64,000 nt of DNA, taken from contig NZ_FNIL01000006.1 of assembly GCF_900103955.1 (NCBI RefSeq), positions 62,001-126,000 on the forward strand, written 5' to 3'. The DNA is from Alkalicoccus daliensis (GTDB taxonomy: Bacteria; Bacillota; Bacilli; Bacillales; Salisediminibacteriaceae). Of this stretch, positions 20,860-36,514 are shown piece by piece. A program made the position numbers and the translations under genes. A model generated the notes under the pieces. It ran no database searches and was not told the origin of the DNA. It was given only the letters and a program-made list of their open reading frames with translations. Within the stretch, counting starts at the first letter, position 1, and each line of letters starts with the position of its first letter.

Positions 20860-20863
20860 AAAA

Positions 20864-21110: not shown

Positions 21111-21135
21111 TAAATTAAAAAGGTGGGTCTTACAT

Positions 21136-22161: not shown

Positions 22162-22235
22162 CATCGGAGGTTACAAATTTCATTTTTGAGTGGCGAAGCC
22201 GATTAACTTTTTTAGAGTAATAGCATATTCGATAT

Positions 22236-22396
22236 GAGGCTGGGTCAGAATCATAATCTCAGCCTTATAAACCAAATAATAAGATGTCTAAGAACCCTAT
22301 TAAAACAAATAAACCGAACTCTCATGAAACTCTGATGAGAGTGCCAAAAGATAGTTCGGTTTTATTCATGTGATAAAAAGCTTTTGCCCCATCCTC
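22236..22396. mobile_element. Candidate MITE with IS1182-like ends
   Basis: A 161-bp non-coding element. The left end GAGGCTGGGTCAGAA and the inverted right end GAGGATGGGGCAAAA agree at 12 of 15 bases and resemble ends I associate with IS1182-type elements of Bacilli. Inside are two nested hairpins: AAACCGAACT (22311-22320) with AGTTCGGTTT (22353-22362), and ACTCTCAT (22318-22325) with ATGAGAGT (22335-22342); the former is followed by T's. No clear target duplication. It probably also serves as the terminator of the lacI-family gene. Confidence 0.45.
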
Positions 22397-22754
22397 TGCT
22401 CCATTTCATTAAGTCTGTAAATCGTTGTTTCCGTTAATTCTACTTCATGCTTGTCACTTTCCTGATATAATAAGAAATGCATTATCCCCCATACTTTTTA
22501 TAGCATTTTTCTTTCATTCAGTTGACCTATATCAGGTACCCCCTCTTTTAATAAGGAATTTTCTCTTAGTTAATTTAATGGCTGGTATACACTTTATTCT
22601 TTTCATAAAAGAAGCTAACGTCATTACAAACTCTGCATTCGAAAAAATTCTATTTATTCTGTATTGAAATATTGTTCAGCTATACATCAATTCCTTTCTT
22701 TACCACTACTTTTACAGTGCTTTTTATCTTAGCAGCTTTTACAATTCCCTACTA
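22397..22754. other. Non-coding gap
   Basis: About 360 AT-rich bases between the MITE-like element and the terminator of the second catabolic operon. An 80-codon open frame on the plus strand (22425-22667) lacks a ribosome site and has the composition of random AT-rich DNA. I see no feature in it. Confidence 0.4.
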
Positions 22755-22793
22755 AAAAGATCAGCTTAAAGGAGTACCTTTAACTGATCTTTT
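22755..22793 (-). terminator. Strong intrinsic terminator of the GntR-linked operon
   Basis: AAAAGATCAG and CTGATCTTTT enclose a second stem of TTAAAGG and CCTTTAA with a 4-base loop and one bulged C. On the minus strand it is followed by TTTTTAG. It begins three bases after the kinase stop codon, so it closes the operon. Confidence 0.88.
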
Positions 22794-22795
22794 GG

Positions 22796-24307
22796 TTATG
22801 CCCACTTTTTATAGAGTTCTCGTAAAGTCAATGCTGCTTCCTTATATTTGCCGTATAAGTTCCTGTATTTTTCTGTTTTTACCAATTCAGGATGGTATTT
22901 CTCAGTAGTTTTTACTACGGTCCGGCTTGCAGTTACGATATCATCAAACCACCCCGCAGTAACTGAAGCCAGCAGTGCTGCTCCGAGAGGCGAAGCGTCA
23001 TGATTTCCCAATTTACCTACAGGGAGATTACAAATATTACTGATCATTTGGCACCACGCCCTATTATTGCTGCCTCCGGCGCCGATGACAATCGTTTCAA
23101 TCGGAATATCAATAGATTGATACAGCTCTATGCTTTCATAAATATGAAAACTGATGCCTTCTAACACTGCATGAAACATCTCTGCTTTCGTATGGGAAGC
23201 TCGCAAACCTAAAAATGTACCATTCTCATAGGACTGAAAGTGAGGAGAGCCGCTCCCGGTAAGAAAGGGAAGAAAAATTAATCCATTGCTCCCCGGTGGT
23301 ACATCCTGTATTTCCTTTTCAATTGCGGTCATTCTTTTTTTATCAATTCTCGTACTGTCTTCGCTTCCATAAATTAATTTATAGCCCCATTCTGCTCCAA
23401 ATCCTCCACTGAAAACCGTGCCCATTGCATAGACTTCCCCACCCACAACACTTGGGTGATGTGTTACTTTTCCATACAGGCGGGCGTCCACTTCCTTTAA
23501 TGACACAACAATTTGGGCAGAAGAACTTAAAGTTACTTGGAGGACCCCTTGTTGAATAGAGCCTGTCCCAGCCTGGCTGCAGGCAATGTCTGCTCCTCCG
23601 ACTGCCACAGGCGTACCTTCCTTCACCCTCATTGCTTCAGCGACAGCAGCTGAGATTCTTCCTCCTTCTTCCATGGAAGATACGAGCGGAAGGAATTTCT
23701 CAGGATCAATATGGAAGTCTTCCATCAGACCTCTGTCCCACTGTTGGTCATGTATGTTATAAAGCATTGTATTACCGGCATCTGTTCTGTCACTTTTCAA
23801 TTCTCCTGTCAGACGGAATCTTATAAAATCCTTCGGCGACATAATGTAAGCCGTTTTTGCAAGTATTTCCGGTTCGTACTCCTGCAGCCATAACAATTTC
23901 GGTAAAGAAAAAGCTTCAATAGGAGAATTTCCTGTTCTTTCTTCCAAATCTGCTTTTCTTGTCTCTCTCAATCTATTCGTAATTATTTCAGAGCGGGTGT
24001 CTGCCACCATCATGCTGTTTCTCAGCACTTGAAAATTTTTATCTAAATACACAAGTGCCGACATATTTCCAGAAAGACCTATCGCTTCTACTTTTTCTGC
24101 ATCAATCTTTGTGCACAGCGTGTTCAGCCCTTTTTGAACTGCGGTCCACCAGTCTTCCGGGTTTTGTTCTATCCAGTGCTTATATGGATAGTGAGTAGCA
24201 TACTCATAGGAAGCGGAAGCCGCAATTTGATAGCTTCCTTTCGCTAAAGCTGCACATTTTGTTGAGCTTGTCCCAATATCTATTGCAATAATATAGGAGT
24301 CTTCCAC
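22796..24307 (-). CDS. FGGY-family carbohydrate kinase
   Basis: 503 residues, typical for the family. The N-terminal phosphate motif is AIDIGTSSTKCAAL (8-21). The C-terminal FGGY domain contains VIGAGGSNNRAWCQMISN, and the adenosine-binding LGAALLA follows. Closest in feel to xylulokinase or gluconate kinase-like members, but specificity cannot be read from sequence. It phosphorylates a sugar, polyol or sugar acid in the cytoplasm. GTG start with AAGGAGG 7 bases upstream. Last gene of the operon, 12 bases after the SIS gene. Confidence 0.9.
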   Translation of the reverse strand: MEDSYIIAIDIGTSSTKCAALAKGSYQIAASASYEYATHYPYKHWIEQNPEDWWTAVQKGLNTLCTKIDAEKVEAIGLSGNMSALVYLDKNFQVLRNSMMVADTRSEIITNRLRETRKADLEERTGNSPIEAFSLPKLLWLQEYEPEILAKTAYIMSPKDFIRFRLTGELKSDRTDAGNTMLYNIHDQQWDRGLMEDFHIDPEKFLPLVSSMEEGGRISAAVAEAMRVKEGTPVAVGGADIACSQAGTGSIQQGVLQVTLSSSAQIVVSLKEVDARLYGKVTHHPSVVGGEVYAMGTVFSGGFGAEWGYKLIYGSEDSTRIDKKRMTAIEKEIQDVPPGSNGLIFLPFLTGSGSPHFQSYENGTFLGLRASHTKAEMFHAVLEGISFHIYESIELYQSIDIPIETIVIGAGGSNNRAWCQMISNICNLPVGKLGNHDASPLGAALLASVTAGWFDDIVTASRTVVKTTEKYHPELVKTEKYRNLYGKYKEAALTLRELYKKWA

Positions 24308-24319
24308 TGTGGATCCTCC

Positions 24320-25051
24320 TTACAAATGTTTTATTTTGCTGCGGTATTTTTCCAGATATTTTTCATTCTTTTCCATTCCTCCGGTTACGTTGCCGCTTAC
24401 CAGGACTGGCACTTCTTTTTTCTGCTCCAGCAGCTGTTCTACAATCATCGTTACGAGTGTATTCATTAGAAACGAGCCAATAATCGTAGATCCGGGAGCC
24501 ATGCCGATATTTCTTTCTTCGACTTCGACCAGCGCATCTCCTTTTGGAAGGGTATTATCTATCACCCAGTCTGCAATATCAATCAGCTTTTTGCCTGACT
24601 GATGTTTTGATTCTTCCTCCCCGTAATTACTGCTCGTTAAAGCAATCACACGGAGCCCTCTTTCTTTTGCTGTCAGCGCCATTTCTATTGGTACATTATT
24701 CGTGCCGGAATTAGATACGATTACAATAAATTCCCCTTCCCGCACATGATAATTATCTAAAATGGGAGAAGCATATCCTTTCATTTTTTCCATTTTTGAG
24801 CTTTTAATCGCACCTTCATGCAGCATCAGGCTCGTTTCCAGAATAGGACTGACCGGCACAAGGCCCCCTGCTCTGTAAAACAGCTCTTCTGTAATCATAT
24901 GCGAATGCCCACAGCCAAACATATGAAGCACCTGATCTTCATTAATCGAGAGAGCAATTTCTTTGGAAAGATTCCACAATTCCGTTTTATTCATCTCAAA
25001 CGCTTTCGTAATATGTTCCTGAATAAGCTTGTAATACTTCTCTGCAAACAT
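24320..25051 (-). CDS. SIS-domain sugar isomerase-like protein (UPF0309 type)
   Basis: 243 residues forming one SIS domain. The phosphosugar site is visible in MFGCGHSH and VIVSNSGTNNVPIEMA, and GMAPGSTIIGSFLMN follows. The family, long annotated UPF0309, is related to phosphosugar isomerases and often accompanies amino-sugar genes. It has no helix-turn-helix, so it is an enzyme rather than an RpiR regulator. With the FGGY kinase next to it, it could isomerise the phosphorylated sugar, or act before the kinase. Confidence 0.82.
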   Translation of the reverse strand: MFAEKYYKLIQEHITKAFEMNKTELWNLSKEIALSINEDQVLHMFGCGHSHMITEELFYRAGGLVPVSPILETSLMLHEGAIKSSKMEKMKGYASPILDNYHVREGEFIVIVSNSGTNNVPIEMALTAKERGLRVIALTSSNYGEEESKHQSGKKLIDIADWVIDNTLPKGDALVEVEERNIGMAPGSTIIGSFLMNTLVTMIVEQLLEQKKEVPVLVSGNVTGGMEKNEKYLEKYRSKIKHL

Positions 25052-25063
25052 GATGTCCCTCCC

Positions 25064-25807
25064 TCACAAAATATTCTCAGGTACACCCAGCTGTTGAAAT
25101 AGCATATTTGCTTCTTCAATATGAGAAGACCCATTTTTTAACACAGGCATATTGTGACCTGGAAGCAGCTCATCCACGTGCATAAAGCTTAACTTTTGGA
25201 TACTCTGTTTTAACTTCTGCAAATCAAAATCATGCGTGGACAACATGGAAATTTTCCCTTGGCCGAACACTGTATCGCCGGAAAACAACCGCTTTCTTCC
25301 CTCTGCACTTTCTATATAAAAAGAACTGCAATGCTTTGAATGCCCCGGAGTGGAAATTATTTTGATTGAATAGGGACCTATATCTATTTCTTGGCCATCC
25401 TGAAAAGAAACATCCGGGGAAATGCCGGGAAACGAGTAATCCTCCGGATAAAATCCAAATTTTCGTGCAGCATTTAAATCAATTGCTGTTTCATCACCGC
25501 GTATCAGTATTTCTTTTGCGGAAGCCGGTGCGTATAACAGAGCATTGGATGCCTCCTTTATTTTAGCTGCCCCCCCGGCATGATCGGCATGCACGTGTGT
25601 GAGCAGCACATGGGTAATATTCTTAAGAGAAGTTCCGCACCACAGCAGCTGTTCTTCCCACAGATGAAAGTCCAGCCCGGTTCCTGTATCTATAAGAATC
25701 TGTATGTCTTCATGTATCATCAAATAACCATTACAATCTGCCGCGTGTGTAAGATGTGCTCCCATTCTGCCGCTGCCAACTAAGAAAAGATCCTCTGCCA
25801 GCTTCAT
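25064..25807 (-). CDS. Metallo-beta-lactamase-fold hydrolase
   Basis: 247 residues. The di-metal motif THVHADHAGG, the later His in TPGHSKH, the bridging Asp in FSGDTVFG and the last His in LLPGHNM are all present. Similar folds act as lactonases, glyoxalase II and phosphonate or thioester hydrolases. Here a lactonase step in sugar-acid breakdown is plausible, not shown. ATG 25807 overlaps the RidA stop as ATGA, so translation is coupled; a longer frame inside RidA is unlikely. Confidence 0.87.
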   Translation of the reverse strand: MKLAEDLFLVGSGRMGAHLTHAADCNGYLMIHEDIQILIDTGTGLDFHLWEEQLLWCGTSLKNITHVLLTHVHADHAGGAAKIKEASNALLYAPASAKEILIRGDETAIDLNAARKFGFYPEDYSFPGISPDVSFQDGQEIDIGPYSIKIISTPGHSKHCSSFYIESAEGRKRLFSGDTVFGQGKISMLSTHDFDLQKLKQSIQKLSFMHVDELLPGHNMPVLKNGSSHIEEANMLFQQLGVPENIL

Positions 25808-26271
25808 GATACTTCTTCCTTCACCTGAAAAATCATTTCCAGTTCTACACACGCATTAAAGGGAAGTTCACTCGTGCCTAATGCTGCTCTGGCATGTTTT
25901 CCTTTTTCTCCAAAGATTTCGATCAGCAGCTCCGACGCAGCATTAATTACGATCGGCTGTTCACCAAAATCTTCTCCTGACCTGACGTATCCAATCACCC
26001 GGACAACTCTTTCCACTCTGTTCAGGGAGCCAAGCACACTGCGGACTTCACCAAGACAGTTTAAGCAGGCAAGCCTGGCTCCTTTCTGAGCCTCTTCTAC
26101 ACTTATTGTAGTTCCCACCCGGCCAGTATATATCATTTCTGTCCCTTTCTCCGGTGTCTGACCGGAGATATACAGCAGATCGTTTACTACTACGCCGGGC
26201 AGAAAATTGAACCGTGGCTCTACTGCGGGTATATCAATATGCAGTGACTTTACTTTTTCTTCAGGAGTCAT
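25804..26271 (-). CDS. RidA/YjgF-family enamine/imine deaminase
   Basis: 155 residues. The conserved Arg is in HARAALGTSELPFNACVELE, and the fold begins with the usual ISGQTP segment. RidA hydrolyses reactive enamines and imines released by PLP enzymes such as threonine/serine dehydratases. Its presence beside a threonine-synthase-like PLP enzyme therefore suggests a deamination step in this pathway. GGAGG precedes ATG 26271, which lies 11 bases inside the upstream oxidoreductase gene; its stop overlaps the next start. Confidence 0.88.
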   Translation of the reverse strand: MTPEEKVKSLHIDIPAVEPRFNFLPGVVVNDLLYISGQTPEKGTEMIYTGRVGTTISVEEAQKGARLACLNCLGEVRSVLGSLNRVERVVRVIGYVRSGEDFGEQPIVINAASELLIEIFGEKGKHARAALGTSELPFNACVELEMIFQVKEEVS

Positions 26272-27298
26272 TTGTTTCCTCCCTTGTGATAATCTGTTTT
26301 GTTTTTCCAGATGCAATGATTGCCTCCGCCAGATAAAAAGATGCACATGCCTGTTCCAGCGGCATCCAGTCAAAGTTTTTATTCTGCAGCAGACATTCAC
26401 AAAAATATTCCAGCTCCCGTTTCAACGCCCCGCCTGGTCCGTGAATACCCGGCGGCCACAGGCGGGTATCCGGTTCACCTGCCTCCTTTTCCGTCCAGAC
26501 CTGAAAACCAGCGTTCGGCTGCTGGTATTTCGCTGTTCCCTTCGTTCCAATCAGCTCTATATATTCTTTAATCGTGCCTTGTAAATCCAAAGTTCCCAAC
26601 TCATTTAGTGTAGGCGGTGCTCCTTCCGGCAGCATCCAGGAAGACATAATGACGGCCTGCAGACCATTTTCAAACTCAATTAATGCCTGGAATGAATCCG
26701 GTGACGTTTCTCCGACGGCATGAGACTCCATCGCATACACAGTCTTCCACTGTGCGTCTGCGTACCAGATAATTAAATCCAGATCGTGAATTCCTGACTC
26801 GAATACAGGATGCACTCTATGACCAAACCCTTGGAACCAGCTGCGGTTAAAGTCTCTGATTGCCCTTATCTGTGACAGCTTTCCCAACACTCCTTCTTCC
26901 AGTGCTTTTTTTATGGAAATCTGCTCCTGGCTGAACCTGCTGATGTGCCCTGTCATGATCTGCCCCGCCCGTGCTGTTTTTCGAATTTTGTTTATTTCCT
27001 CTCTCGAAGTAGCAAGCGGCTTTTCCACAAAAACCTTTTTATTGTGATGCAGTGCTTCCAGAATAATTGCGCCGTGCGTATCTTCATTTGAAGTAATATC
27101 TACCGCGTCCACTTCTAACTGCCACAGTTCCTCCACTGATGAAAACCCATGGGGAATATGATACTTTTCCTGCACTTCTTTTAGTCTTTGCGGGTCTGGC
27201 TCCACTACTGCCAGCACGTTTACTTCCGCGATTGTCTGCAGGATTTCAATATGAAGACTTCCAAACCTGCCAGCACCAATTACAGCAAGTTGTATCAA
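26261..27298 (-). CDS. Gfo/Idh/MocA-family oxidoreductase
   Basis: 345 residues. The Rossmann motif is AVIGAGRFG, EKPLA carries the catalytic Lys, and the His/Asp pair is in SGIHDLDLIIWY. Family members oxidise or epimerise sugars, inositols and glycosides with NAD(P). A TTG at 27298 with AAGGTGGG 7 bases upstream is the likely start, because the alternative GTG lies within that ribosome site. The gene follows the MalG-type permease gene and overlaps ridA by 11 bases. Confidence 0.88.
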   Translation of the reverse strand: MIQLAVIGAGRFGSLHIEILQTIAEVNVLAVVEPDPQRLKEVQEKYHIPHGFSSVEELWQLEVDAVDITSNEDTHGAIILEALHHNKKVFVEKPLATSREEINKIRKTARAGQIMTGHISRFSQEQISIKKALEEGVLGKLSQIRAIRDFNRSWFQGFGHRVHPVFESGIHDLDLIIWYADAQWKTVYAMESHAVGETSPDSFQALIEFENGLQAVIMSSWMLPEGAPPTLNELGTLDLQGTIKEYIELIGTKGTAKYQQPNAGFQVWTEKEAGEPDTRLWPPGIHGPGGALKRELEYFCECLLQNKNFDWMPLEQACASFYLAEAIIASGKTKQIITREETNDS

Positions 27299-27317
27299 AT
27301 AGGATCCCACCTTACTA

Positions 27318-28127
27318 TTACGTTTTTACCGCGCCGGACGCCAATCCTCTGACAAAGTATCTGCCGACGAAGGCAAAGAATATGAGAACAGGAATCACAG
27401 TTAACACTGCTCCTGCAGTCGTCCAACCCCACCGTACGGTATACTGCCCCATAATCGCGTTCATTCCGGTAGTCAGCACCCGCTGAGAATCTTCGGTAAT
27501 TAAGATCGAAGCAAACGTAAATTCTGTCCAGGCAAGTACAAAGGCATAGATTGCAATTGTCGCAATTCCCGGCTTGATCAACGGTATGATGATTAAAAAC
27601 AACGTTTTCATCGGTCCCGCTCCATCGATAGAAGCAGCCTCATCCAGTTCAGTCGGAATCGCGTCGAAGAACCCCCGCATGAGCCATACTGCAAAAGGTG
27701 CTGCAAACGTAACGTTAATAATGACGAGACTCCACAAAGAATTTACAAGTCCCAGATCCGACATCAGCTGATAAACGGGCACTAACAGCAGGACACCGGG
27801 GAAAATATAGGATGCAAGAATTAATCGAAAAAGAAAATTCCTTCCGATAAATTGAAACCGGAAAATCCCGTAGGCAGCAGGAATTACGATTAACACCGTA
27901 AAAACCATCGTCATCCCTGCCACAAACACACTGTTAAACAAGTTTGTTAAATAAGGTGTCTGCTCCAGCAGCTCTACGTAATGTACGAGTGTAAAAGTTT
28001 CCGGCCATAAATCCGGGCTTAAAATCTGGTCAGATGGTTTAAACGAGGAAATTAATACCCAGTAGAAAGGGAAAGCAATTAAAATGATTAAAAACGTTCC
28101 AACGAAAATACGGATCAACTTATTCAT
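27318..28127 (-). CDS. Carbohydrate ABC transporter permease, MalG type
   Basis: 269 residues, six membrane helices. EAA loop DEAASIDGAGPMKTLFLIIIP. Pairs with the MalF-type permease 18 bases upstream. GGGAGAG precedes ATG. No ATPase is encoded in this operon. Confidence 0.93.
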   Translation of the reverse strand: MNKLIRIFVGTFLIILIAFPFYWVLISSFKPSDQILSPDLWPETFTLVHYVELLEQTPYLTNLFNSVFVAGMTMVFTVLIVIPAAYGIFRFQFIGRNFLFRLILASYIFPGVLLLVPVYQLMSDLGLVNSLWSLVIINVTFAAPFAVWLMRGFFDAIPTELDEAASIDGAGPMKTLFLIIIPLIKPGIATIAIYAFVLAWTEFTFASILITEDSQRVLTTGMNAIMGQYTVRWGWTTAGAVLTVIPVLIFFAFVGRYFVRGLASGAVKT

Positions 28128-28145
28128 CTTTTCTCTCCCTCCCTC

Positions 28146-29084
28146 TTATTCTTTTGGTGCTGCAAATTTAATAAACAGCGTAGCAAAAATAACTAAAATT
28201 AACGCGGTAATCACCGACATCGCCGAAGCTGATCCTACCGCATACTGTCGGAAAGCAGTCTGATAAATCTGTACGGGCAGCGTGGTGGAGTACCCAGCCG
28301 GTCCGCCTTCTGTAAGCACCCAGATTAAATCAAAAATATTGAACATCCAGAGGGTTCCGACAAGTCCGATGGCAAAAGTCACCGGTGCAATTGAAGGAAT
28401 AGTAATAAATCGGAACGTCTGAATACGATTCGCCCCGTCTACTGCCGAAGCTTCATAAAGTTCCTCCGGAATATTCGCTAAAGCAGCCAATAAAACTACT
28501 GCCAAGAAGGGAAACCAGTTCCAGGAATTAATGAAAATAATAATTGGCAGCGTCAGGGAAGGATTTCCTAAAAAATTGATCGAGGAATCAATCAGCCCTG
28601 TATTAATTAATATTGCATTTAAAATTCCGTAGGAACCATTAAAAATCCACTGCCAGAAGATCGCAACAACAATCGTCGGTACAATCCACGGAATTACCAT
28701 CCACGTCCTGGCTATATTCGAAATTTTCCTGTTGTTATTCAGCAGCAGTGCAATGGAAAAAGCAAGCACTGTCTGCAGCAGGCCATTTCCCAGCACCCAG
28801 ATCAGGCTTCTGCCGGAAGAAGACCAAAAAGCAGAAGATGTGAGTACATTTATATAATTTGTCAGTCCAATAAATTCCCCCGCAGATCCTGCAAATCCGG
28901 TGTCATAAAAACTTTCTCTTACGACGCTTATGAGCGGGATGAAGATGGTGACTAGAATCCAGAAGACGATAGGGAAAACAAGCAGGTACGGAAATATCGT
29001 TTTCCATATCATCCATTTCGGTTTGGACGGCATAGGTTCACTTGCTGCTTTTGAAGCTTTTACGGTAGAGTTATCGGCATTCAT
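28146..29084 (-). CDS. Carbohydrate ABC transporter permease, MalF type
   Basis: 312 residues, with a ~20-residue cytoplasmic N-terminus before the first membrane helix. EAA loop YEASAVDGANRIQTFRFITIP-like, as in CUT1 permeases. Its ribosome site (GGGTGTGAT) is weaker than those of its neighbours, and a hairpin stands between it and the binding-protein gene; both should lower its expression relative to that protein. Confidence 0.92.
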   Translation of the reverse strand: MNADNSTVKASKAASEPMPSKPKWMIWKTIFPYLLVFPIVFWILVTIFIPLISVVRESFYDTGFAGSAGEFIGLTNYINVLTSSAFWSSSGRSLIWVLGNGLLQTVLAFSIALLLNNNRKISNIARTWMVIPWIVPTIVVAIFWQWIFNGSYGILNAILINTGLIDSSINFLGNPSLTLPIIIFINSWNWFPFLAVVLLAALANIPEELYEASAVDGANRIQTFRFITIPSIAPVTFAIGLVGTLWMFNIFDLIWVLTEGGPAGYSTTLPVQIYQTAFRQYAVGSASAMSVITALILVIFATLFIKFAAPKE

Positions 29085-29111
29085 TTATTATCACACCCTA
29101 ATAAGAAAATA

Positions 29112-29196
29112 GAGGCTCTCATAATTTCAGGAAGACTTTCCACAGCAAAAGGTATTTTCCTCTTTAAAATGAAGTCGCTGAATTAAGAGAAGCCTC
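29112..29196 (-). terminator. Attenuating hairpin after binding-protein gene
   Basis: On the minus strand, the arm 29178-29196 (GAGGCTTCTC...) pairs with 29112-29130 (...GAGAGCCTC) with a few bulges and a ~47-base loop, followed by TATTTTCTTATT. It lies in the 129-base gap after the binding-protein gene and could terminate part of the transcripts. Confidence 0.5.
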
Positions 29197-29213
29197 ATGT
29201 AAGGAAGCTTATT

Positions 29214-30584
29214 TTATTCCTGCACTGCTTCCTCCATTTGTTCCTGCCCCCACTCTACTGCTTCTTCCGGCGTCATATCGTTTATAATAATCTGCTGCAA
29301 TGTTTCAGCAATATAGTTCGGCCCGGCAATCTGCCCAATCCTTGAGGCAACTCCGTCTGTAAACCCGAACAGCTGTCCATGCTGAGAGTAATCAATAAGA
29401 AAATCAACATGTTCTCTGTACTGTTCTACTACCGGATCTTCATAGAAGCTTCCGTCCGTTCCATCCTCCGTTACGGGCAGGAAGAGTCCAGGGTCTGCGT
29501 TTAAGAAGTCTCCATAGTTGTCAGGATCAAACATAAATTCGAAAAATGCTTCAATACCTGCCTGCTTCTCTTCTTCATCCGTCAGCATCATTACCGCATT
29601 GGAATAATAAATACTTCCCTCTTCTCCGTTAGGTCCCTGGGGAATCGGAGCTACTCCAAGGCTTTCTGCCGGCTGGCCGGATTCGTCTTCAAACGGTGCA
29701 AGATACTGTCCTTTTTCAATTGCCATGGAAGCATTGCCGGAGTTAAACTGTGCCTGCGGTTCCCCCCACCCGTAAGACGTGCTGTCGGAAGGAGAATATT
29801 CCAGTAAATCCGCATAAAGTTCATAGGAATCTACAGTTTCCTGCGTATTAAAATTCACATTGTTGTCGGAATCTATAATGTCTTTTGCCCCACCAGAAAC
29901 CATAATACTGTAGAGCACCTGATCTGTTGCCATCGTGCTGGAGGCAGGAAGTGCAATTCCATTGCGGTCGCCGTCATTTAATGTTTCGGCCGCTGCAAGG
30001 AGGTCCTCCCAAGTTTCCGGAACTTCCAGACCAGCTTCCTCAAAGTGATCTGCCCGGTACCATAATGCCTGTACCATTCCGTACAGCGGAACTGCCCATG
30101 TATGATCTTCATACTGATAAGGAACTAATGCAGTTTCAATAAATCCATGGTCTGCATCTATCTGCTCCACAATATCTTCTACCGGCTGCAGCACATCCAG
30201 ATCCTGAATTAATGCTGTATAGTCGGGGATAGTGAAAAGAAGATCCGGTCCTTCTCCCGCTTGTATCGCAGAAGGAAACTGTACATAGGCATCATCCCAA
30301 TTCTGGACCTGACTGTTAATCACATAATCATCCTGCGATTCGTTGAACCGGTCAAACACCTCATTAAATCGTTCTACTCGGTGTGGCGGTTCTTCCATGT
30401 GCCAAAGCGTAATTTCTACTGCTTCCCCAGATCCTTCCGCCTCATTTTCTGCATTATTCCCCCCATTTCCTGTGTTGCCTGCATTTGCTTCTTCTCCATT
30501 TTCTTCTGCACCGCCGCAGGCTGCCAAGGTTACGGTAAAGCCGCCAATAAGAGTACTCCATAAAACCTTTTGATAGATTTTCAC
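29214..30584 (-). CDS. Sugar ABC transporter solute-binding lipoprotein
   Basis: 456 residues. Lipoprotein signal with LAAC (Cys23), then an Asn/Glu/Gly linker and a family-1 solute-binding fold that starts ITLWHMEEPPHRVERF. The start is the GTG at 30584, with AGGGAG 8 bases upstream; an earlier GTG three codons away lies in the ribosome site. It feeds the two permeases downstream. Substrate unknown; gene context points to an amino-sugar derivative or sugar/amino-acid conjugate. Confidence 0.92.
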   Translation of the reverse strand: MKIYQKVLWSTLIGGFTVTLAACGGAEENGEEANAGNTGNGGNNAENEAEGSGEAVEITLWHMEEPPHRVERFNEVFDRFNESQDDYVINSQVQNWDDAYVQFPSAIQAGEGPDLLFTIPDYTALIQDLDVLQPVEDIVEQIDADHGFIETALVPYQYEDHTWAVPLYGMVQALWYRADHFEEAGLEVPETWEDLLAAAETLNDGDRNGIALPASSTMATDQVLYSIMVSGGAKDIIDSDNNVNFNTQETVDSYELYADLLEYSPSDSTSYGWGEPQAQFNSGNASMAIEKGQYLAPFEDESGQPAESLGVAPIPQGPNGEEGSIYYSNAVMMLTDEEEKQAGIEAFFEFMFDPDNYGDFLNADPGLFLPVTEDGTDGSFYEDPVVEQYREHVDFLIDYSQHGQLFGFTDGVASRIGQIAGPNYIAETLQQIIINDMTPEEAVEWGQEQMEEAVQE

Positions 30585-30598
30585 TATTCCCACTCCCT

Positions 30599-31777
30599 CT
30601 ATTTAGTAATAGATAAATCCTTTAACCCATGCCCGGTTCCCACACTGATTACAATATCTTTTTCCTGCAGGCTGCCTCTGATTTTTTTAACCGCTGTCAC
30701 AGCTGCTGCGGCAGATATTTCTAACAGAATCCCTTCTTTACTCGCGATATCTTTTCTTTCCTGCAGAAGCTCTTTTTCACAGATCCTTACCGCAGTTCCT
30801 TCTGATTCTCTAATAACAGACAGCGTTCTGGTACCATCTTCAGGATAGTTTGTTAAAGGATCTGCAATACCAACAGCACTTGTTCCTGTTCCTTTATCCC
30901 AGCCGCTTACTTTTGCCGATCCTTCCCGGTATGCCTGCACAATAGGAGAGACATTTTCTGCCTGTACGCCTACCATTCTTGGAAGTTTCTTGGTTAAGCC
31001 TAACTGCTTCAATTCCTGAAACCCTTTATACACTCCTATTAGGAGAGGCCCCGCCCCAATCGGTACAACAATCCAGTCCGGCACCTGTTTTTGCAGCTGA
31101 TACCATAATTCATAAGCTACTGTTTTATTTCCCTCGATCGCAATCGGGTTAATAAACGTTGAAGTAACATTAAATAACTGTGTTTTCACCGCTTCTTCTT
31201 TCACGATATGGTAGGCTTCACTGAAGTTCCCTTCGATCGGAACCACATCTGCCCCATAAACATGCATTAACTGCAGTTTTTCAGAGGAAGCAGTCTGCGG
31301 CACGTAGATTTTACAATACATACCACTCTTTGCAGCATAGGCACTTGCCGCCACTGCAGTGTTACCTGTAGAAGCAGTAATGATCCCTTTCAGCTGATGC
31401 TCTTTTGCAAAAGAAACAGCAACAGCTAACGGCCGATCTTTAAATGCTCCTGTAGGCTGTATAGATTCATTTTTTAAAAACCAATTTGAAAGGTTTTCTT
31501 CCTTCCTTGAATAATCGAGAGAGAGAAGAGGCGTGCCACCTTCTCCCATAGTGACAGAATATTCAGTCTTCACAGGCAGCAGCTCATCAAATTCCCATAT
31601 CGAAGTGCTGACGGGGAATTTTTTAGACTGAAGTTTTTCTGCAAGAGACGATGGGAGGTCATATTCCACATTTAAAATCCCATTACATTCAGGACAGCGA
31701 TAGAGCACTTTCATTTCATAATTTTGCTTACAGGATAAGCACTGCAGTTCGTAATATGTTTTTTCAATATGCGTCAC
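30599..31777 (-). CDS. Threonine-synthase-like PLP-dependent enzyme
   Basis: About 392 residues. An N-terminal zinc ribbon (Cys13-x2-Cys16, Cys28-x2-Cys31) precedes a fold-type II PLP domain with the Schiff-base Lys in TGAFKDRP and the phosphate loop TASTGNTAV. Such proteins include threonine synthase, threonine/serine dehydratases and diaminopropionate lyases. No homoserine genes are nearby, while RidA is in the same operon, so an ammonia-releasing beta-elimination is more likely. The start is uncertain. GTG 31777 lies inside the GGGAGGTG ribosome site. An ATT at 31768 has ideal spacing and overlaps the upstream TGA by one base. TTG 31798 is further upstream. Confidence 0.82.
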   Translation of the reverse strand: MTHIEKTYYELQCLSCKQNYEMKVLYRCPECNGILNVEYDLPSSLAEKLQSKKFPVSTSIWEFDELLPVKTEYSVTMGEGGTPLLSLDYSRKEENLSNWFLKNESIQPTGAFKDRPLAVAVSFAKEHQLKGIITASTGNTAVAASAYAAKSGMYCKIYVPQTASSEKLQLMHVYGADVVPIEGNFSEAYHIVKEEAVKTQLFNVTSTFINPIAIEGNKTVAYELWYQLQKQVPDWIVVPIGAGPLLIGVYKGFQELKQLGLTKKLPRMVGVQAENVSPIVQAYREGSAKVSGWDKGTGTSAVGIADPLTNYPEDGTRTLSVIRESEGTAVRICEKELLQERKDIASKEGILLEISAAAAVTAVKKIRGSLQEKDIVISVGTGHGLKDLSITK

Positions 31778-32948
31778 CTCCCTGCGTAATAAATGCAAGC
31801 AGTATATCGAAACACTGGCTCAGCTGCTCTATTTCAATCCATTCTTCCGACGAATGTGCCTGTGCAATGCTCCCCGGACCAAATACCACTGCCGGTAAAT
31901 GCGGGTGGTGCGTCTGGGCAAGAGCTGCATCTGTCCAAAAAGGCAGCCCTCCTATATGCGGAGTTTTATTCACGGAAGTATGTACTGCTTCAGCCAGACG
32001 CACTACATACTTATTACTGCTGTCAGTTGAAAGTGGTCCGTGGGGGACACCTTTAAAATTATCCATTTCTTTAATATCTATCTGCAGATTCATTCGGGCA
32101 CTGCTGACGTTCTCAGTCAGCTGCTCAAGTTCATGCAGCACTGAGCTTGCTGTCTCTCCCGGAAGCAGTCTTCTTTCGAGAAGTACCTGACAGCTTTCTG
32201 GAACGGTGACCGGTCTTACACCTCCCTGAATCTGCCCTATGTTCACCGTCGCTTCACCGAGAACTTTGTGTGTTTTCTGCATAAGTTCTTTTTGATATAC
32301 TGCTTCTACTTCTGCGATCCAGGCAGCAGCATCATAGATTGCATTCTGCCCCTCTGATGGAACACTTCCGTGGGCGGACTTCCCGTGAAATACAGCCTCT
32401 ATCCATGTGACACCTTTATGCGCTATTCCTATCTCCAGCGAAGTAGGCTCTCCCACAATTAAAAAATCTGCTTCTTTCAGATGGGGTGCTAACGAATCCA
32501 TCCCAGGACTGTAGGACTCTTCACCGATCGTCCAGGCAGCTTTTATTTTCCCCTGAAACTTGGCCGGATTTTCCTGAAGATGTACGAGTAAGTCCATTAC
32601 TACCGCAATGAACCCTTTCATATCTACAGCGCCGCGCCCATATAATCTGCCCTCTCTGCAGAAAGGCGTGAAAGCATTATGCATATCTCCGGGAGGCACC
32701 GTATCTAAATGACCGTTAAAAACGAAAACAGGACCTTCCTTCTGAGAATCTATCTCGATAATAATGTTCGACCTGTCACCTATTACCCGCTGCACTGTTA
32801 CCTGCAGCCCATGAGATTCTGCGTATTGTTTAAGAAGTAACCCTGCTTCTTTTTCCTGTTCCGGATATTCCTCATGGCTTTCAATGAAAATCAATTGTTC
32901 TGCAAGGGACAGCCAGTGTTCCATTCTGCTTGCTCCCACTGCCGTCAT
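31764..32948 (-). CDS. M20-family metallohydrolase (ArgE/DapE/ACY1 type)
   Basis: 394 residues. Metal-binding NGHLDTVPPGD, catalytic Glu pair GEES, the dimerisation lid domain starting HKGVTWIEAVFHGKSAHGS, and a late metal-binding His (SIAQAHSSEEW). The family removes acyl groups from N-acyl-amino acids or cleaves dipeptides. In this operon a deacylation of the imported compound would free the amino group for the PLP enzyme encoded next (inference). The ATG at 32948 directly follows the TAA of the upstream gene. An ATG eight codons later (32924) has a better GGGAG site and may be the true start. Confidence 0.88.
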   Translation of the reverse strand: MTAVGASRMEHWLSLAEQLIFIESHEEYPEQEKEAGLLLKQYAESHGLQVTVQRVIGDRSNIIIEIDSQKEGPVFVFNGHLDTVPPGDMHNAFTPFCREGRLYGRGAVDMKGFIAVVMDLLVHLQENPAKFQGKIKAAWTIGEESYSPGMDSLAPHLKEADFLIVGEPTSLEIGIAHKGVTWIEAVFHGKSAHGSVPSEGQNAIYDAAAWIAEVEAVYQKELMQKTHKVLGEATVNIGQIQGGVRPVTVPESCQVLLERRLLPGETASSVLHELEQLTENVSSARMNLQIDIKEMDNFKGVPHGPLSTDSSNKYVVRLAEAVHTSVNKTPHIGGLPFWTDAALAQTHHPHLPAVVFGPGSIAQAHSSEEWIEIEQLSQCFDILLAFITQGGDAY

Positions 32949-33887
32949 TTACTTTCCCCAGCCGTGTTCTTCTAAAAATTCTTTCGCTTCTTCTGCCACC
33001 CGATCAAAATCAGCTAAAGAAATTGCAGAAGGCTCGCCCACACCATAAAGGCCCCCAGCCTGCCACGCTTCCCATTCCACTGAATTATAGCCTTTGAAAT
33101 TCACGCTTTTTAATGCATCTGACATTTCCACAAAGTCTACAAACCCGCCGCCAAACCATACATGCTGTGACTGCATAATATTCGGAAAGCCTACTTCATC
33201 TTTTACGTGCACGACTTTGATCCTGTCTCCCAGCAGACTGATCGCTTTTGGAATCGGCATTCTCGGTTTTACTGTAGTATAGAACGTTCCGACATCTACA
33301 CAGATGTACACGTTGCTCCGATCTACTTCTTCCAGTAATTTCATTGCTGACTCCACCGTATTGATAATAGTGCCCTGAATAAGCTCAATACATACGTCGA
33401 CCCCTTTTTTCTTTCCGTAGTCTGCCACTTCTACCGTTGCATCCACTACCTGTTTCCATGCTTCTTTTCTGGTAATAAGCGTATATAACGGTGGATCATA
33501 GTAGCCATCTCCAATGAGGGTCACTACTGATTCACAGCCCATGTCCGAAGCCGCATCAATAGCTCTTTTGAATTTTTCTATTCCTGCTTCTCTGTCGAAA
33601 TGCCGTGGTGTTACAAAGGTGGTATGACAGCCGATAGAAGAAAAGGCAAGACCTGTTTTTTCGGCAGTCTTCTTTACTTTCTCTACCCCATCCTTGTACT
33701 CGTGCGAACGCCACTCCTGAATTTTTGGATAAATAACATCAAAGCCTTCGTAGCCATAGGAAGCAATCTGCTCTACACACCATTCCAGCGGTTTGTCTCC
33801 CCAGGAATTCCAGGCAGGCCCTGCAATTTCAAGTCTTCCCCAAGGCATGTTCGGCCAGATTTCAAAAGACAGTTTAAGATGATCCAT
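32949..33887 (-). CDS. Sugar phosphate isomerase/epimerase-like TIM-barrel protein
   Basis: 312 residues of the xylose isomerase-like (AP endonuclease 2) superfamily. Likely metal ligands are Glu in CIELIQGT, Asp and His in CVDVGTFYT and KVVHVKDEV, and Glu in SVEWEAW. Family members epimerise or isomerise keto-sugars and inosose. First gene of the operon; AGGAGG lies 6 bases before ATG, and the promoter and operator are within 95 bases upstream. Confidence 0.87.
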   Translation of the reverse strand: MDHLKLSFEIWPNMPWGRLEIAGPAWNSWGDKPLEWCVEQIASYGYEGFDVIYPKIQEWRSHEYKDGVEKVKKTAEKTGLAFSSIGCHTTFVTPRHFDREAGIEKFKRAIDAASDMGCESVVTLIGDGYYDPPLYTLITRKEAWKQVVDATVEVADYGKKKGVDVCIELIQGTIINTVESAMKLLEEVDRSNVYICVDVGTFYTTVKPRMPIPKAISLLGDRIKVVHVKDEVGFPNIMQSQHVWFGGGFVDFVEMSDALKSVNFKGYNSVEWEAWQAGGLYGVGEPSAISLADFDRVAEEAKEFLEEHGWGK

Positions 33888-33930
33888 ACAATCCCTCCTA
33901 ATATAGTGCTCTCTTTAACTGGTTGTCTTG

Positions 33931-33942
33931 TGGTCTATACCA
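33931..33942. promoter_or_regulatory. GntR/UTRA (dre-type) operator of the operon
   Basis: TGGTCTATACCA, an almost perfect palindrome that differs by one base from the dre core TGGTCTAGACCA known for NagR/DasR-type HutC-subfamily regulators. It lies just downstream of the -10 box, where bound repressor would block initiation. Confidence 0.82.
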
Positions 33943-33950
33943 TTAATAAT

Positions 33951-33979
33951 GTTATAACACACCAAATAAAGTAACTCAA
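33951..33979 (-). promoter_or_regulatory. SigA promoter of the GntR-linked catabolic operon
   Basis: On the minus strand, TTGAGT (33974-33979) and TATAAC (33951-33956) are separated by exactly 17 bases. Each differs from the consensus hexamer by one or two bases. The dre-type operator begins about 9 bases downstream. Confidence 0.75.
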
Positions 33980-34020
33980 GAGTTTTTTGAAAATTCTAAT
34001 ATAAATTACTGTAAGATTAT

Positions 34021-34740
34021 TTACCTTTTCATTTGCGTGACAAATTTATACTTGTCTCCTCGATAGACAGAAGTAACATATTCAAAATGATGGCCGCTCG
34101 CTAAATAGCTGACTCGCTTCATCAGCAGCACCGGGGCACCTACTTCAATATTTAATAATTCCGCTTCATGTTCTCTCGCTAATGAAGGCTCAATTGTCTG
34201 GGACGCTCCTTCGATCTTCATTCCCTTCGACTCTACGTATTGGTAGAAAGAAGATTTAAGGTTGTTCAGCTCAATTTCCGGAAACAAGTAAGCTGGCAGA
34301 GTCATTACTTCATATGCAATCGGTTCCTCATCCGCTAACCGAATACGGGAGAGCTCATATCCTTTGGAGCCTTCCTCCACTTGCAGATGTCTGCTTTTCT
34401 GCAGGGAAATCCCCACCTCTTTAAAGTCAATCAGCTTTACTCCCGGTGTGAGGCCCCTCCAGAGCATATCTTCGGAAAAACTTGTTAAATCCATTAACGG
34501 CTGTTCAAATCTTTTTATATTTACAAACGTTCCTTTTCCTTTCTCTTTATACAGGAGCCCTTCTGATACCAAGTTGGATATCGCCTGACGGATCGTCATT
34601 CTGCTTACATTAAAATCATAGGCAAGTTCACGCTCGGAAGGAATCATTTCCTCCTCTGCAAGTTCACCTTTTTCAATTTGGCTGCGCAAAATTTCTTCAA
34701 TCTGATAATAAATTGGAATAGGAGATTGTTTATTAATCAT
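34021..34740 (-). CDS. GntR-family regulator, HutC subfamily (UTRA domain)
   Basis: 239 residues. The winged helix-turn-helix is at ~10-75 (PSERELAYDFNVSRMTIRQAIS) and the UTRA ligand-binding domain at ~90-235. Homologues such as NagR and DasR bind phosphorylated amino sugars. Matching operators lie before the catabolic operon and before this gene itself, so it probably represses both and responds to a pathway intermediate. AAAGGTGG precedes ATG. Confidence 0.92.
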   Translation of the reverse strand: MINKQSPIPIYYQIEEILRSQIEKGELAEEEMIPSERELAYDFNVSRMTIRQAISNLVSEGLLYKEKGKGTFVNIKRFEQPLMDLTSFSEDMLWRGLTPGVKLIDFKEVGISLQKSRHLQVEEGSKGYELSRIRLADEEPIAYEVMTLPAYLFPEIELNNLKSSFYQYVESKGMKIEGASQTIEPSLAREHEAELLNIEVGAPVLLMKRVSYLASGHHFEYVTSVYRGDKYKFVTQMKR

Positions 34741-34792
34741 TTAGGGACCACCTTTACTCTTTTTTTAAATATTTTATCATTATCCTCTCTAC

Positions 34793-34804
34793 AGGTCTAT
34801 ACCA
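34793..34804. promoter_or_regulatory. GntR/UTRA operator before the regulator gene
   Basis: AGGTCTATACCA shares its 10-base core GGTCTATACC with the operon operator and is extended by a flanking G. It lies 53 bases before the ATG of the regulator gene, so autoregulation is likely. Confidence 0.75.
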
Positions 34805-35079
34805 GTTCACCGAATGAAGTAACTGTTTTTTGTTTATTTTTAACAATTAATTCGATTTCATTGAGAAGGGCAGATGTTGACCATAATAGACATCTCATTC
34901 AATTTTATGAGTTTCTATATTAACGCTTCAAACTATCTTATTCTTTTGGACCCTTCAATTTTAAACGACAGTGGGCTGGTTCAATAGATTTTTAATATTC
35001 ACCTTACTATCCATCATTTCTTATTATTTTAGTTTTCTTTAATACCCGTACTCCAATTATGAATGCCAAGTGCAATAAC

Positions 35080-35133
35080 GTAAGCGTTAAAAATCCGCAC
35101 CTAGGATTTTAGGTGCGGATTTTTAACGCTTAC
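35080..35133. repeat. Perfect 24-bp inverted repeat with 6-base loop
   Basis: Arms 35080-35103 and 35110-35133 are exact complements; the loop is GGATTT. It can act as a terminator in either direction but lies 275 bases from the nearest intact gene upstream, among gene remnants. It may be a dispersed palindromic element. Confidence 0.7.
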
Positions 35134-35190
35134 TTCTCATCATGCGGTCTTTCATTGAAAAACTCCTTAAAGCTGCATAAGAATCTGCAC

Positions 35191-35289
35191 GCAGCGATGG
35201 AGGCAGCGAATTTAGAATTTTTGCTTGCACTTCCAATAACAAAGCCGGGAGTGGCCATAATAGCGATATTCAATGTCATTACTAATTAG
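35191..35289 (+). pseudogene. Remnant of a MalG-type ABC permease gene
   Basis: The plus strand reads AAMEAANLEFLLALPITKPG and then VAIIAIFNVITN before TAG. This resembles the EAA loop and next membrane helix of carbohydrate permeases, with the DGA part deleted. No start or ribosome site. It suggests that another transporter operon once stood in this gap. Confidence 0.5.
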
Positions 35290-35552
35290 AGTGAGTTTTG
35301 TTTGCTGAATTATCGATTGTTCCAACACCAACTCCTTCTGTTATTTATATTCTTCAAACAAATAAACAGAAGGAGCAGCTTCAGAATCTGTAAAGTAAAT
35401 TAGAGGTGGCATTAAATTACACTGAGGCATAAAAGCTCATGGGTGTACCTACCGCTTTTTAATGATTTACTTTTTTTACCTATATAATATACATCTCTTT
35501 GTTTTCTCTAAAAGGCGATATTATCACCGGGGTAATCTTATTACTTATATTC
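35290..35552. other. Non-coding gap with an 11-bp hairpin
   Basis: CTCCTTCTGTT (35332-35342) and AACAGAAGGAG (35365-35375) pair across 22 bases without a T-run. The remaining sequence up to the UspA gene shows no gene. The sequence between the GntR gene and 35080 likewise holds only the regulator's promoter region. Confidence 0.4.
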
Positions 35553-36014: not shown

Positions 36015-36199
36015 ATTAATCTCCTCCTCGTGAGTGCAGATTAAGTGCCAAATAGCAGTTAAGATACCTTATACTATCGATTATCTCATGTTTTTCATGT
36101 TAAAACCATACAGATCTCCCCGTGAGAATTTACAGTTGAATAAGTGGATCAGATAGATCCCATGATAATATATAATTTCTTTCACGAAGATGGTCATAT

Positions 36200-36353: not shown

Positions 36354-36514
36354 TGCACACTTTCACAATTTTATTATCAGTTTTTAAAACGTTTGTTTTG
36401 TAATTTGAAGAGTTTGAGATAAATTCGACTCCGGTACTTATTTTTCATTTACCTTCCTCACCAAAACATATGATAAAGTATAAACTAACTATTTTTCGGA
36501 AGGAGGAGGCAGGT

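Follow-up and report, generated by a model that had tools for sequence, protein, structure and literature searches.

A sugar-uptake operon of Alkalicoccus daliensis with a candidate oxidative amino-sugar module and a threonine synthase look-alike

Introduction

Why does one operon pair sugar-uptake and phosphosugar genes with an M20 deacylase, a PLP enzyme resembling threonine synthase (ThrC) and a RidA-family protein? The question arises from contig NZ_FNIL01000006.1 of Alkalicoccus daliensis, of which we analyzed a stretch of 64,000 nucleotides (hereafter the window). A sequence-only reading had proposed import of an N-acylated amino-sugar acid or a sugar/amino-acid conjugate, deacylation, PLP-dependent loss of ammonia assisted by RidA, and isomerization and phosphorylation of the resulting keto-sugar acid. 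We find that the operon has a two-part make-up, a sugar core and a putative amino-sugar module, and that its PLP enzyme is non-ThrC in character by motif, tree and context. With modest confidence, we favor a composite operon in which an oxidative amino-sugar module, joined to the sugar core, would feed a KDG-type kinase and KDPG aldolase. Literature searches for such a cluster or its steps, largely outside subscription journals, yielded no published description of this gene set.

Results

The operon runs from 34804 to 22755 on the minus strand of the window and comprises the following features, in order of transcription:

34794..34804, minus: operator-like site TGGTATAGACC upstream of the GntR gene (motif search)
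34021..34740, minus: GntR/UTRA regulator, core (Pfam GntR and UTRA above cut-off)
33932..33942, minus: second operator-like site TGGTATAGACC, upstream of the TIM-barrel gene (motif search)
32949..33887, minus: AP_endonuc_2 TIM barrel, probable sugar epimerase or isomerase, core (domain match)
31764..32948, minus: M20 ArgE/DapE-family deacylase, module (TIGR01910)
30599..31777, minus: fold-type II PLP enzyme, threonine-synthase-like, module (domain match PF00291, motifs, tree; start uncertain, GTG 31777 or ATT 31768)
29214..30593, minus: SBP_bac_1 binding protein, core (domain match; core-locus homologues)
28146..29084, minus: MalF-type permease, core (core-locus homologues)
27318..28127, minus: MalG-type permease, core (core-locus homologues)
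26261..27310, minus: Gfo/Idh/MocA dehydrogenase, module side (domain match)
25804..26271, minus: RidA-family protein of PF14588 type, module (domain match, alignment; ATG 26271)
25064..25807, minus: MBL-fold hydrolase, module side (domain match, alignment; ATG 25807)
24320..25051, minus: SIS_2/UPF0309 protein, NagS relative, core (PRK02947)
22796..24307, minus: FGGY carbohydrate kinase, core (family and domain matches)
22755..22793, minus: Rho-independent terminator hairpin (folding energy compared with shuffles)

Genes and gene order on this strand agree with the sequence-only reading, except that it had counted 11 genes where there are 12. For some open reading frames, including RidA and the MBL-fold gene, the start codon lies downstream of the longest-frame start. 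Intergenic gaps are tight or overlapping throughout, except for those between the GntR and TIM-barrel genes (133 nt) and between the SBP and MalF genes (129 nt). The strong terminator that had been claimed was borne out, the hairpin folding at -19.1 kcal/mol (z -4.54) with equally stable structures in 0 of 200 shuffles. The dre-like operator was likewise found ahead of the regulator gene, together with the downstream copy that had escaped the earlier reading. The GGTATAGACC pattern matches twice across the window, compared with a mean of 0.00 in 100 shuffles, and TGGTMTAGACC occurs with zero mismatches in two copies in the 3.78 Mb genome, both within the operon; no match to the operator motif was found in one core-operon locus, L095. 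The "clear SigA promoter" did not hold up, as a consensus scan of positions 20500-37500 was at chance level (37 promoter-like sites versus 36.7 +/- 6.5 in shuffles).

The core genes GntR/UTRA–TIM–SBP–MalF–MalG–SIS–FGGY stand without the other operon genes in four distant genomes of the same phylum (L095, L096, L119 and L120, the last ending at a contig end), and none of these four loci contains a match to M20, ThrC-like, RidA or Gfo. L096 has a weak MBL match, distant from its core operon. The regulator homologue is the first gene of the core operon in L095, L096 and L119. In the TIM barrel, E, D, H and E residues, which we take to be the metal ligands of the AP_endonuc_2 family, are identical in all four aligned proteins (A. 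daliensis, L095, L096 and L119); among plasmid records its best relatives reach only about 30% identity. The nearest solved structures of the binding protein leave its ligand unfixed. The SIS protein passes PRK02947 (281.3 bits versus a cut-off of 135), has 3cvj and SCO4393/NagS as its closest solved structures and, counted by eye on the alignment, is identical to NagS at all nine mutated residues (H53, S54, R64, S91, E94, S119, S121, D179 and N228). Four of its relatives were examined, out of 41 plasmid records: three adjoin nagA and one adjoins a gene of the KDGP-aldolase family.

Among the remaining genes, the deacylase passes TIGR01910 (ArgE/DapE deacylase; 222.8 bits versus a cut-off of 217.6), and its residues H80, D82, D109, E143, E144, E167 and H365 are invariant in the three sequences compared. 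The MBL-fold hydrolase keeps the full metal set (HxHxDH and the H, D and H residues); its identification as a metallo-beta-lactamase resistance enzyme was rejected, the class B3 model scoring 89.3 bits versus a cut-off of 240. Relatives of the Gfo/Idh/MocA dehydrogenase lie within clusters of Arthrobacter and Planococcus. Two RidA relatives, chosen from 405 plasmid records solely for their RidA similarity, have no M20 or ThrC-like neighbor: the surroundings in Peptoclostridium show nothing similar, and the Phyllobacterium gene stands with an amidohydrolase/deacetylase, an IclR and a class V PLP gene. No relative was found in the viral contigs searched.

The PLP enzyme shares with ThrC its family (PALP), the PLP lysine in PTGxFKDR and a four-cysteine N-terminal motif of archaeal type, and it scores 187.4 bits with the TIGR00260 'threonine synthase' model (cut-off 167.1), compared with 349.7 for the genome's own ThrC, which is confirmed by NCBIfam and encoded at a separate locus (L124) in the order hom-thrC-thrB. 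The motif test separates the two: the PLP enzyme has TSTFINPIAIEG instead of NS...NPxRxEGQK and GAGPLL instead of GNAGN, and both ThrC motifs are kept in the genome's own ThrC and in the consensus of 77 archaeal ThrC. By automatic loop reading, 63 of these 77 carry PVGNAGN and the others carry variants or misreadings. Residues N154, S155 and R160 of the motif (T. thermophilus numbering) presumably bind the substrate phosphate. In the tree, 11 module PLP enzymes and 11 ThrC are split by a branch with 100/99 support; on the module side both the NS...R motif and, in every member, the GNAGN loop are missing, the loop variants there including GAGSFL (Arthrobacter) and GDGPVL (L137) (for L100, the motif comparison used a partial protein and the trees the whole one). 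Two further ThrC-like loci, G021/L007 and L071 (Spirochaeta), fall outside the module clade in one of the trees, and L071 is without any marker gene. The 'threonine-synthase-like' label is apt for the family and improbable for the function, and we rejected a true threonine synthase on motifs, tree and genome context; this identity, which the sequence-only reading had named as counting against it, is unlikely.

The neighbors of this clade recur. At its 10 other loci we found M20 in nine, RidA in seven, a KDG-type kinase in six and KDPG aldolase in five, and on the oxidation side Gfo in four and MBL in three, counts that are not wholly independent where they include L097 and L100, since both loci were also retrieved by the MBL query. 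Among the loci picked by ThrC-like similarity alone (L010-L013 and L136-L138, the L012 and L136 PLP enzymes being near-identical), M20 and RidA are present in all seven, the kinase in five and the aldolase in four. L138 presents a single compact run, MalF-MalG-M20-ThrC-like-RidA-(151-aa ORF)-PfkB-KDPG aldolase. In Planococcus the MBL gene lies between Gfo/Idh and M20, in a cluster that also holds RidA, a KDG-type kinase and KDPG aldolase; the Arthrobacter gene set is similar, and MBL lies near Gfo/Idh- and M20-type genes in Arthrobacter and Haladaptatus. L112 combines the ThrC-like gene with Gfo/Idh and a sugar ABC set and no further module gene, and sugar-type transporters stand near the module in L138, L097, L100, L112 and L137. 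SIS and FGGY have no match in the stretches searched of the 11 module-type loci; a TIM-barrel match in L013 is weak (22% identity, 2.6e-6).

As a control, none of seven marker genes was found in the stretches searched around the 77 archaeal ThrC, loci of unequal length (48 of at least 15 kb) compared with mostly bacterial markers and with one kinase reference fewer than in the module-locus count. Among the 80 loci listed from the contig scan, all are archaeal ThrC except L012, L013 and L071. Plasmids gave 36 records with ThrC-like matches, of which five clusters were examined (Arthrobacter, two Haladaptatus, Haloprofundus and Haloarcula); Haloprofundus and Haloarcula were left out of the module count because of their loop, GDGCTI, and in Haloprofundus an M20 gene adjoins the ThrC-like gene. 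The L013 ThrC-like protein had no plasmid match at 1e-60. Occurrences may have been missed, since two genome searches scored four candidates per genome.

KDG kinase and KDPG aldolase are absent from the A. daliensis operon, and a KDG-kinase-like/KDPG-aldolase pair is encoded elsewhere in the genome. KDG-type kinases score under the equivalog cut-offs, and for two of the five scanned another model is best. Gene content, recurrent linkage and the existence of genomic homologues of the enzymes for the final two steps are established directly. LPMO_10 has no match in the A. daliensis genome, so an oxidized amino sugar would need to be made inside the cell or taken from others.

Discussion

The probable job of the module genes is to remove both the acyl group and the nitrogen of an amino-sugar acid. 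In the pathway we propose, whose substrate, step order and every enzyme activity we infer from these genes, the core would import a sugar, probably one containing an amino sugar, and handle a phosphosugar. Gfo/Idh would oxidize C1 of an N-acyl-2-amino-2-deoxy-aldose to a lactone, which the MBL enzyme would open, so that the sugar becomes an N-acyl alpha-amino acid. The ArgE/DapE-type enzyme would take the acyl group off, the PLP enzyme would eliminate the 3-OH as water to give an enamine/imine, and RidA would hydrolyze the latter, releasing ammonia and leaving a 2-keto-3-deoxy-aldonate (KDG or an isomer), from which the kinase and aldolase encoded elsewhere could yield pyruvate and glyceraldehyde-3-phosphate. 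Since fold-II PLP enzymes usually act on L-amino acids, and C-alpha of glucosaminate has the D configuration, a different epimer may be the actual sugar. The predicted deacylation by M20 followed by PLP-dependent ammonia loss with RidA is supported by co-occurrence of the trio in unrelated contexts, often with the kinase and aldolase genes. The lactone opening suggested earlier is plausible from the position of the MBL gene in other clusters; because MBL and Gfo/Idh are missing from many module loci, the C1-oxidation/lactonase half is the weaker one. The earlier assignment of TIM barrel, SIS and FGGY to the keto-acid finds no support, given the core operons without a module, the lack of SIS and FGGY in the stretches searched of module-type loci and the KDG-kinase-like and aldolase genes elsewhere; the version of the earlier reading with a sugar/amino-acid conjugate is conceivable. 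We infer gain of the module by the core in this operon, not its loss from the other core operons.

The M20 and PLP families are those of amino-acid enzymes, and the module might instead degrade hydroxy-amino acids carrying an N-acyl group (or a peptide, or a conjugate of sugar and amino acid), M20 freeing an amino acid of the serine/threonine type, the PLP enzyme dehydrating it, RidA clearing 2-aminoacrylate or 2-aminocrotonate and the sugar genes taking the other half. An IlvA-like dehydratase in L010, L011 and L013 (with an IlvA-like gene also in L137), a fold-III enzyme in the same three loci whose sole NCBIfam match is 3-hydroxy-D-aspartate aldolase BhcC (145-170 bits versus a cut-off of 690) and an amino-acid-type binding protein (SBP_bac_3) in L012 would suit such a route, but it has no clear use for the recurrent kinase and aldolase, the transporters near the module are sugar-type, and we consider it unlikely. 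We give much less credence to degradation of N-acyl-homoserine lactones or acyl-homoserine by MBL lactonase, M20 acylase and gamma-elimination of homoserine to 2-oxobutyrate and ammonia by the ThrC-like enzyme with RidA. Each enzyme type fits its step, the MBL metal set is complete and ThrC is a homoserine-phosphate enzyme; against this, MBL is absent from seven of the 10 module loci, the kinase, aldolase and Gfo/Idh are left unexplained, the regulator and transporter here are sugar-type, and no AHL lactonase model is among the 25 NCBIfam matches listed, of 51.

A route that bypasses the PLP enzyme is similarly improbable: FGGY would give an amino-sugar phosphate, the NagS-like SIS protein would dehydrate it to a 2-enamide, M20 would deacylate this and RidA would hydrolyze the enamine, leaving the ThrC-like enzyme another role. 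The nine identical NagS residues speak for it, as does the deacetylation of 6P-chromogen I by NagA described in the accessible text of the NagS report (PMC12680351), but SIS and FGGY are absent from the module-type loci and M20, ThrC-like, RidA and Gfo from the core loci. The GntR/UTRA regulator, MalEFG-type importer, TIM barrel, SIS and kinase also resemble, in our estimation, the frl set (fructosamine import, kinase, SIS deglycase and TIM 3-epimerase), to which genes for the released amino acid might have been added, and there is a weak match to the fructoselysine 3-epimerase model (39.6 bits versus a cut-off of 305). The Frl fructosamine operon has a PfkB-type kinase and an FrlB-type SIS; here the kinase is FGGY and the SIS is SIS_2 (PF13580/UPF0309), so that membership was rejected, nagA adjoins most SIS relatives examined, and an Amadori-product operon of this kind seems very unlikely.

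Beyond the composite operon, we tentatively put forward, at somewhat less than an even chance, an undescribed oxidative N-acyl-amino-sugar route across Bacillota, Actinomycetota and haloarchaea. In it, C1 oxidation would create an N-acyl amino acid, and the Ong enzymes of other families would be replaced by a deacylase resembling ArgE and by a threonine-synthase look-alike that has taken on the role of sugar-acid ammonia-lyase; in this genome a single operator would govern the route together with a NagS-like amino-sugar operon to which it is fused. If true, Gram-positive bacteria and archaea could pass amino-sugar nitrogen and carbon into the Entner–Doudoroff end of metabolism along a route hidden by current annotation, since the key enzyme passes the curated TIGR00260 cut-off; a loop other than GNAGN (mostly GAGPL) with M20 and RidA neighbors would offer a simple criterion for locating these genes and mending their annotation. 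The chemistry of the marine Ong pathway would then have been solved a second time, by separate assembly.

We take RutC, a gene name that appears in one of the systems compared here, to be a Rid-family name. ThrC itself lies on the other side of the tree, and the genome's own copy keeps the NS...R motif and GNAGN loop and has hom and thrB beside it. The Natrarchaeobius GlcNAc-GlcN-glucosaminate-KDPG route, itself only predicted, shares deamination of an oxidized amino sugar towards KDPG and has an IclR gene and one named RutC in its cluster; unlike the module, in the portion of the source available, CE14 deacetylation comes first and the ammonia-lyase is of DGA type (PMC12343721). A further known PLP enzyme, as far as its accessible description goes, catalyzes sugar amino acid elimination via an enamine/imine, as proposed here, but it is a different enzyme and its substrate is a phosphorylated acid. 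NagS, a GlcNAc-6-P dehydratase (PLoS Biol 2025), shares with the SIS protein its SIS/UPF0309 family and nine mutated active-site residues, and homologues at 26-36% identity have no or negligible GlcNAc-6-P activity according to the available text (PMC12680351).

The closest parallel is the Ong oxidative chitin pathway of Pseudoalteromonas/Vibrio (Nat Commun 2022), in which, in the part of the report accessible, deacetylase, PLP deaminase, RidA and KdgK act for N-acetylglucosaminate, OngC alone sufficed in vitro and the RidA protein yielded no product (PMC9537276). A single cluster that encodes deacylation, PLP-dependent deamination and RidA, with KDG and KDG-6-P as products, is common to the Ong pathway and the module as predicted from its genes, and so is an SSS-type symporter, present also in the Planococcus locus. 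The differences seen there lie in the deacylase (D-aminoacylase type in OngB, M20 in the module), the deaminase (fold-type III in OngC; fold-type II, PF00291, threonine-synthase-like in the module), the regulator (MurR/RpiR versus GntR/UTRA in A. daliensis) and the Gfo/Idh and MBL enzymes, which could make the acid from an aldose. The hosts differ too: the complete Ong pathway is reported from Gammaproteobacteria and one betaproteobacterium (PMC9537276), and the module is found in Bacillota, Actinomycetota and haloarchaea. On our best reading, the gene set appears to run parallel to that marine pathway while drawing its key enzymes from different families.

Organization of the operon and its flanks

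The operon and the features around it lie as follows in the window:

5359-20878, minus strand: gene set adjoining the operon
21100-22161, plus strand: LacI-type gene that goes with this set
22755-34804, minus strand: operon of twelve genes, read from 34804 to 22755
29080-29216: moderate hairpin (z -2.35) in the gap between the binding protein (SBP) gene and malF
31764-31798: strong Shine-Dalgarno sequence GGAGGTGA of the PLP gene, located at the stop codon of M20, with ATT (31768) after it in place of a usual start
35084-35129: long inverted repeat with a 20-bp stem, between a universal-stress-protein-like ORF and the GntR gene

The operon encodes, in order, a GntR/UTRA regulator, a TIM barrel protein, an M20 deacylase, a threonine-synthase-like PLP enzyme, the binding protein, MalF, MalG, Gfo/Idh, RidA, an MBL-fold protein, a SIS protein and an FGGY kinase, the two permeases having been identified by visual inspection and by BLAST comparison of loci. 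Gene junctions overlap or are tight, except for GntR–TIM (133 nt) and SBP–MalF (129 nt), where the hairpin perhaps tunes transporter stoichiometry, and a strong terminator hairpin (z −4.54) closes the operon. The sequence-only reading had the gene set and the terminator right but counted eleven genes, and the clear SigA promoter that it proposed did not hold up, as promoter-like sites occur at chance level. The sequence TGGTATAGACC occurs twice genome-wide, once upstream of GntR and once upstream of the TIM gene; the pattern GGTNTANACC is also found directly upstream of GntR in two related operons from other genomes of the phylum (L096 and L119), and was not found upstream of GntR in a third (L095). 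The adjoining set holds two hisD-like dehydrogenases, a GarL/HpaI-type aldolase, an amidase, an SDR, two transporter sets of MalEFG appearance and a 200-aa ORF with no Pfam or NCBIfam match, and possibly serves another unusual sugar-acid or alcohol route.

The PLP enzyme differs from threonine synthase

With 187.4 bits against a TIGR00260 (threonine synthase) cut-off of 167.1, the PLP enzyme would be named thrC by annotation pipelines. A separate hom-thrC-thrB locus lies elsewhere in the genome, and its products score above the cut-offs of the models for homoserine dehydrogenase, threonine synthase (349.7 bits) and homoserine kinase. Both this ThrC and a consensus built from 77 archaeal ThrC proteins among the matches listed contain the motif NS…NPxRxEGQK; at this site the PLP enzyme reads TSTFINPIAIEG, and it has GAGPLL in place of the GNAGN loop. 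Counted from the alignment, the equivalent Thermus thermophilus residues are N154, S155, R160 and N188, which we take to contact the phosphate of substrate or cofactor. A midpoint-rooted tree, in which the program flags long branches, places 11 module proteins on one side of a branch and 11 ThrC proteins on the other (support 100/99).

At 1e-60 none of seven other genomes of the genus matched and one of 34 other family genomes did, with a protein of another type; at least two of 396 other genomes of the order passed 1e-75 and, in a profile search, at least three of 397 other genomes of the phylum passed 1e-90. Two loci picked by similarity to the enzyme (L012, 10031-13984; L136, 11509-16459) each carry a close group of three threonine-synthase-like paralogues, whose PLP loops differ (GAGPL, GGGGI and GGGDL) and which perhaps serve different sugar-acid epimers.

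A probable catabolic module travels with the PLP enzyme

At ten other loci with a module-type PLP enzyme we found M20 (9/10), RidA (7/10), a KDG-type kinase (6/10), KDPG aldolase (5/10), Gfo/Idh (4/10) and MBL (3/10); a further annotated Rid-family gene in Arthrobacter fell below the BLAST threshold and is outside the RidA count. The seven loci picked by the PLP enzyme alone all had M20 and RidA, five a kinase and four an aldolase. As a control, not one of the seven marker genes was found in the examined stretches of the 77 archaeal ThrC loci among the matches listed, 48 of these stretches being at least 15 kb long. The most telling cluster is that of L138, which reads MalF–MalG–M20–PLP–RidA–151-aa ORF–PfkB kinase–KDPG aldolase. 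A Planococcus cluster (IclR–RidA–kinase–KDPG aldolase–hypothetical–SSS symporter–Gfo/Idh–MBL–M20–class V PLP) follows the same plan, but its PLP enzyme is of another kind.

On plasmids, all four records with an MBL relative have one or more further genes of the module type close by, and in four of seven with a Gfo/Idh relative (Arthrobacter, Planococcus and two Haladaptatus) this gene is clustered with others of the module; two of the remainder are from Listeria, the one examined having N-acetylmannosamine-6-P epimerase, PTS and ROK neighbours, and one is from Rhizobium. The sequence-only reading had identified the correct components, and the comparison of loci supports the M20–PLP–RidA chemistry that it predicted. 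At L010, L011 and L013 the ThrC-like enzyme stands beside a BhcC-like fold-III enzyme, an IlvA-like dehydratase and TRAP-type transporters.

The core operon occurs without the module

The TIM-barrel gene had no relative at 1e-40 among 396 other genomes of the order and two among 397 others of the phylum, presumably Bacillota; within the classes of these two, two more (one a fragment) appeared among 58 others in one class, and none among 16 others in the other. Three of the resulting clusters (L095, L096 and L119) combine GntR–TIM with SBP, MalF, MalG, SIS and FGGY in varying order, and the fourth (L120) ends inside TIM at a contig end. M20, the PLP enzyme, RidA and Gfo/Idh had no match in the examined stretches of any of the four, and a weak MBL-fold match in L096 lies over 6 kb away from the operon. 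Of the additional genes here, the M20–PLP block separates TIM from SBP, and the Gfo–RidA–MBL block separates MalG from SIS; we infer that the module was added to the core rather than lost from other core operons. The earlier view that TIM, SIS and FGGY act on the keto-acid is not supported; the comparison sets these genes apart as an operon that would have a substrate of its own.

The SIS protein belongs to UPF0309, and the closest relatives of solved structure are 3cvj and NagS, a GlcNAc-6-P dehydratase; by eye on the alignment, it is identical to NagS at all nine residues mutated in the NagS study (PMC12680351). The same study describes no or negligible activity of distant NagS homologues on GlcNAc-6-P. 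We opened four of 41 records of SIS relatives on plasmids: those of Planococcus and Priestia adjoin nagA, nagB, nagE and GntR, that of Rhizobium nagA and GntR, and that of Listeria monocytogenes a KDGP-aldolase family gene, creatininase and PTS. Kinship to NagS and the nagA-type neighbours indicate that the core probably acts on a phosphorylated amino sugar.

A proposed route and its relation to known systems

For the module, we infer activities and step order as follows. Gfo/Idh would oxidize C1 of an N-acyl-hexosamine, and MBL would open the lactone to an N-acyl α-amino acid, the kind of substrate on which an ArgE/DapE-type deacylase and a PLP eliminase would act; the PLP step would yield an enamine or imine, species whose breakdown by RidA is discussed in PMC9529869. 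Placing C1 oxidation before deacylation is our addition to the earlier reading. The end product would be KDG or an isomer, with the comparison of loci pointing to KDG. A KDG-kinase-like and a KDPG-aldolase gene are adjacent elsewhere in the genome (L121), with further copies at other sites. The best model for this kinase is KDG/KDGal kinase, at a score under the equivalog cut-off, and the aldolase passes TIGR01182. LPMO_10 had no match in the genome.

In the paper library searched, we found no description of a cluster with this gene make-up. A predicted haloarchaeal route (PMC12343721) has the oxidized intermediate in common with the module. The Ong pathway, a marine oxidative chitin route, proceeds through N-acetylglucosaminate, a deacetylase, a PLP deaminase, RidA and KdgK and is reported by its authors as complete only from Gammaproteobacteria and one betaproteobacterium (PMC9537276). 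The module shares this logic, but its two key enzymes come from other families, and its regulation and reported taxonomic range differ as well. It is therefore best described as a predicted system that works like the Ong pathway and is not a member of it.
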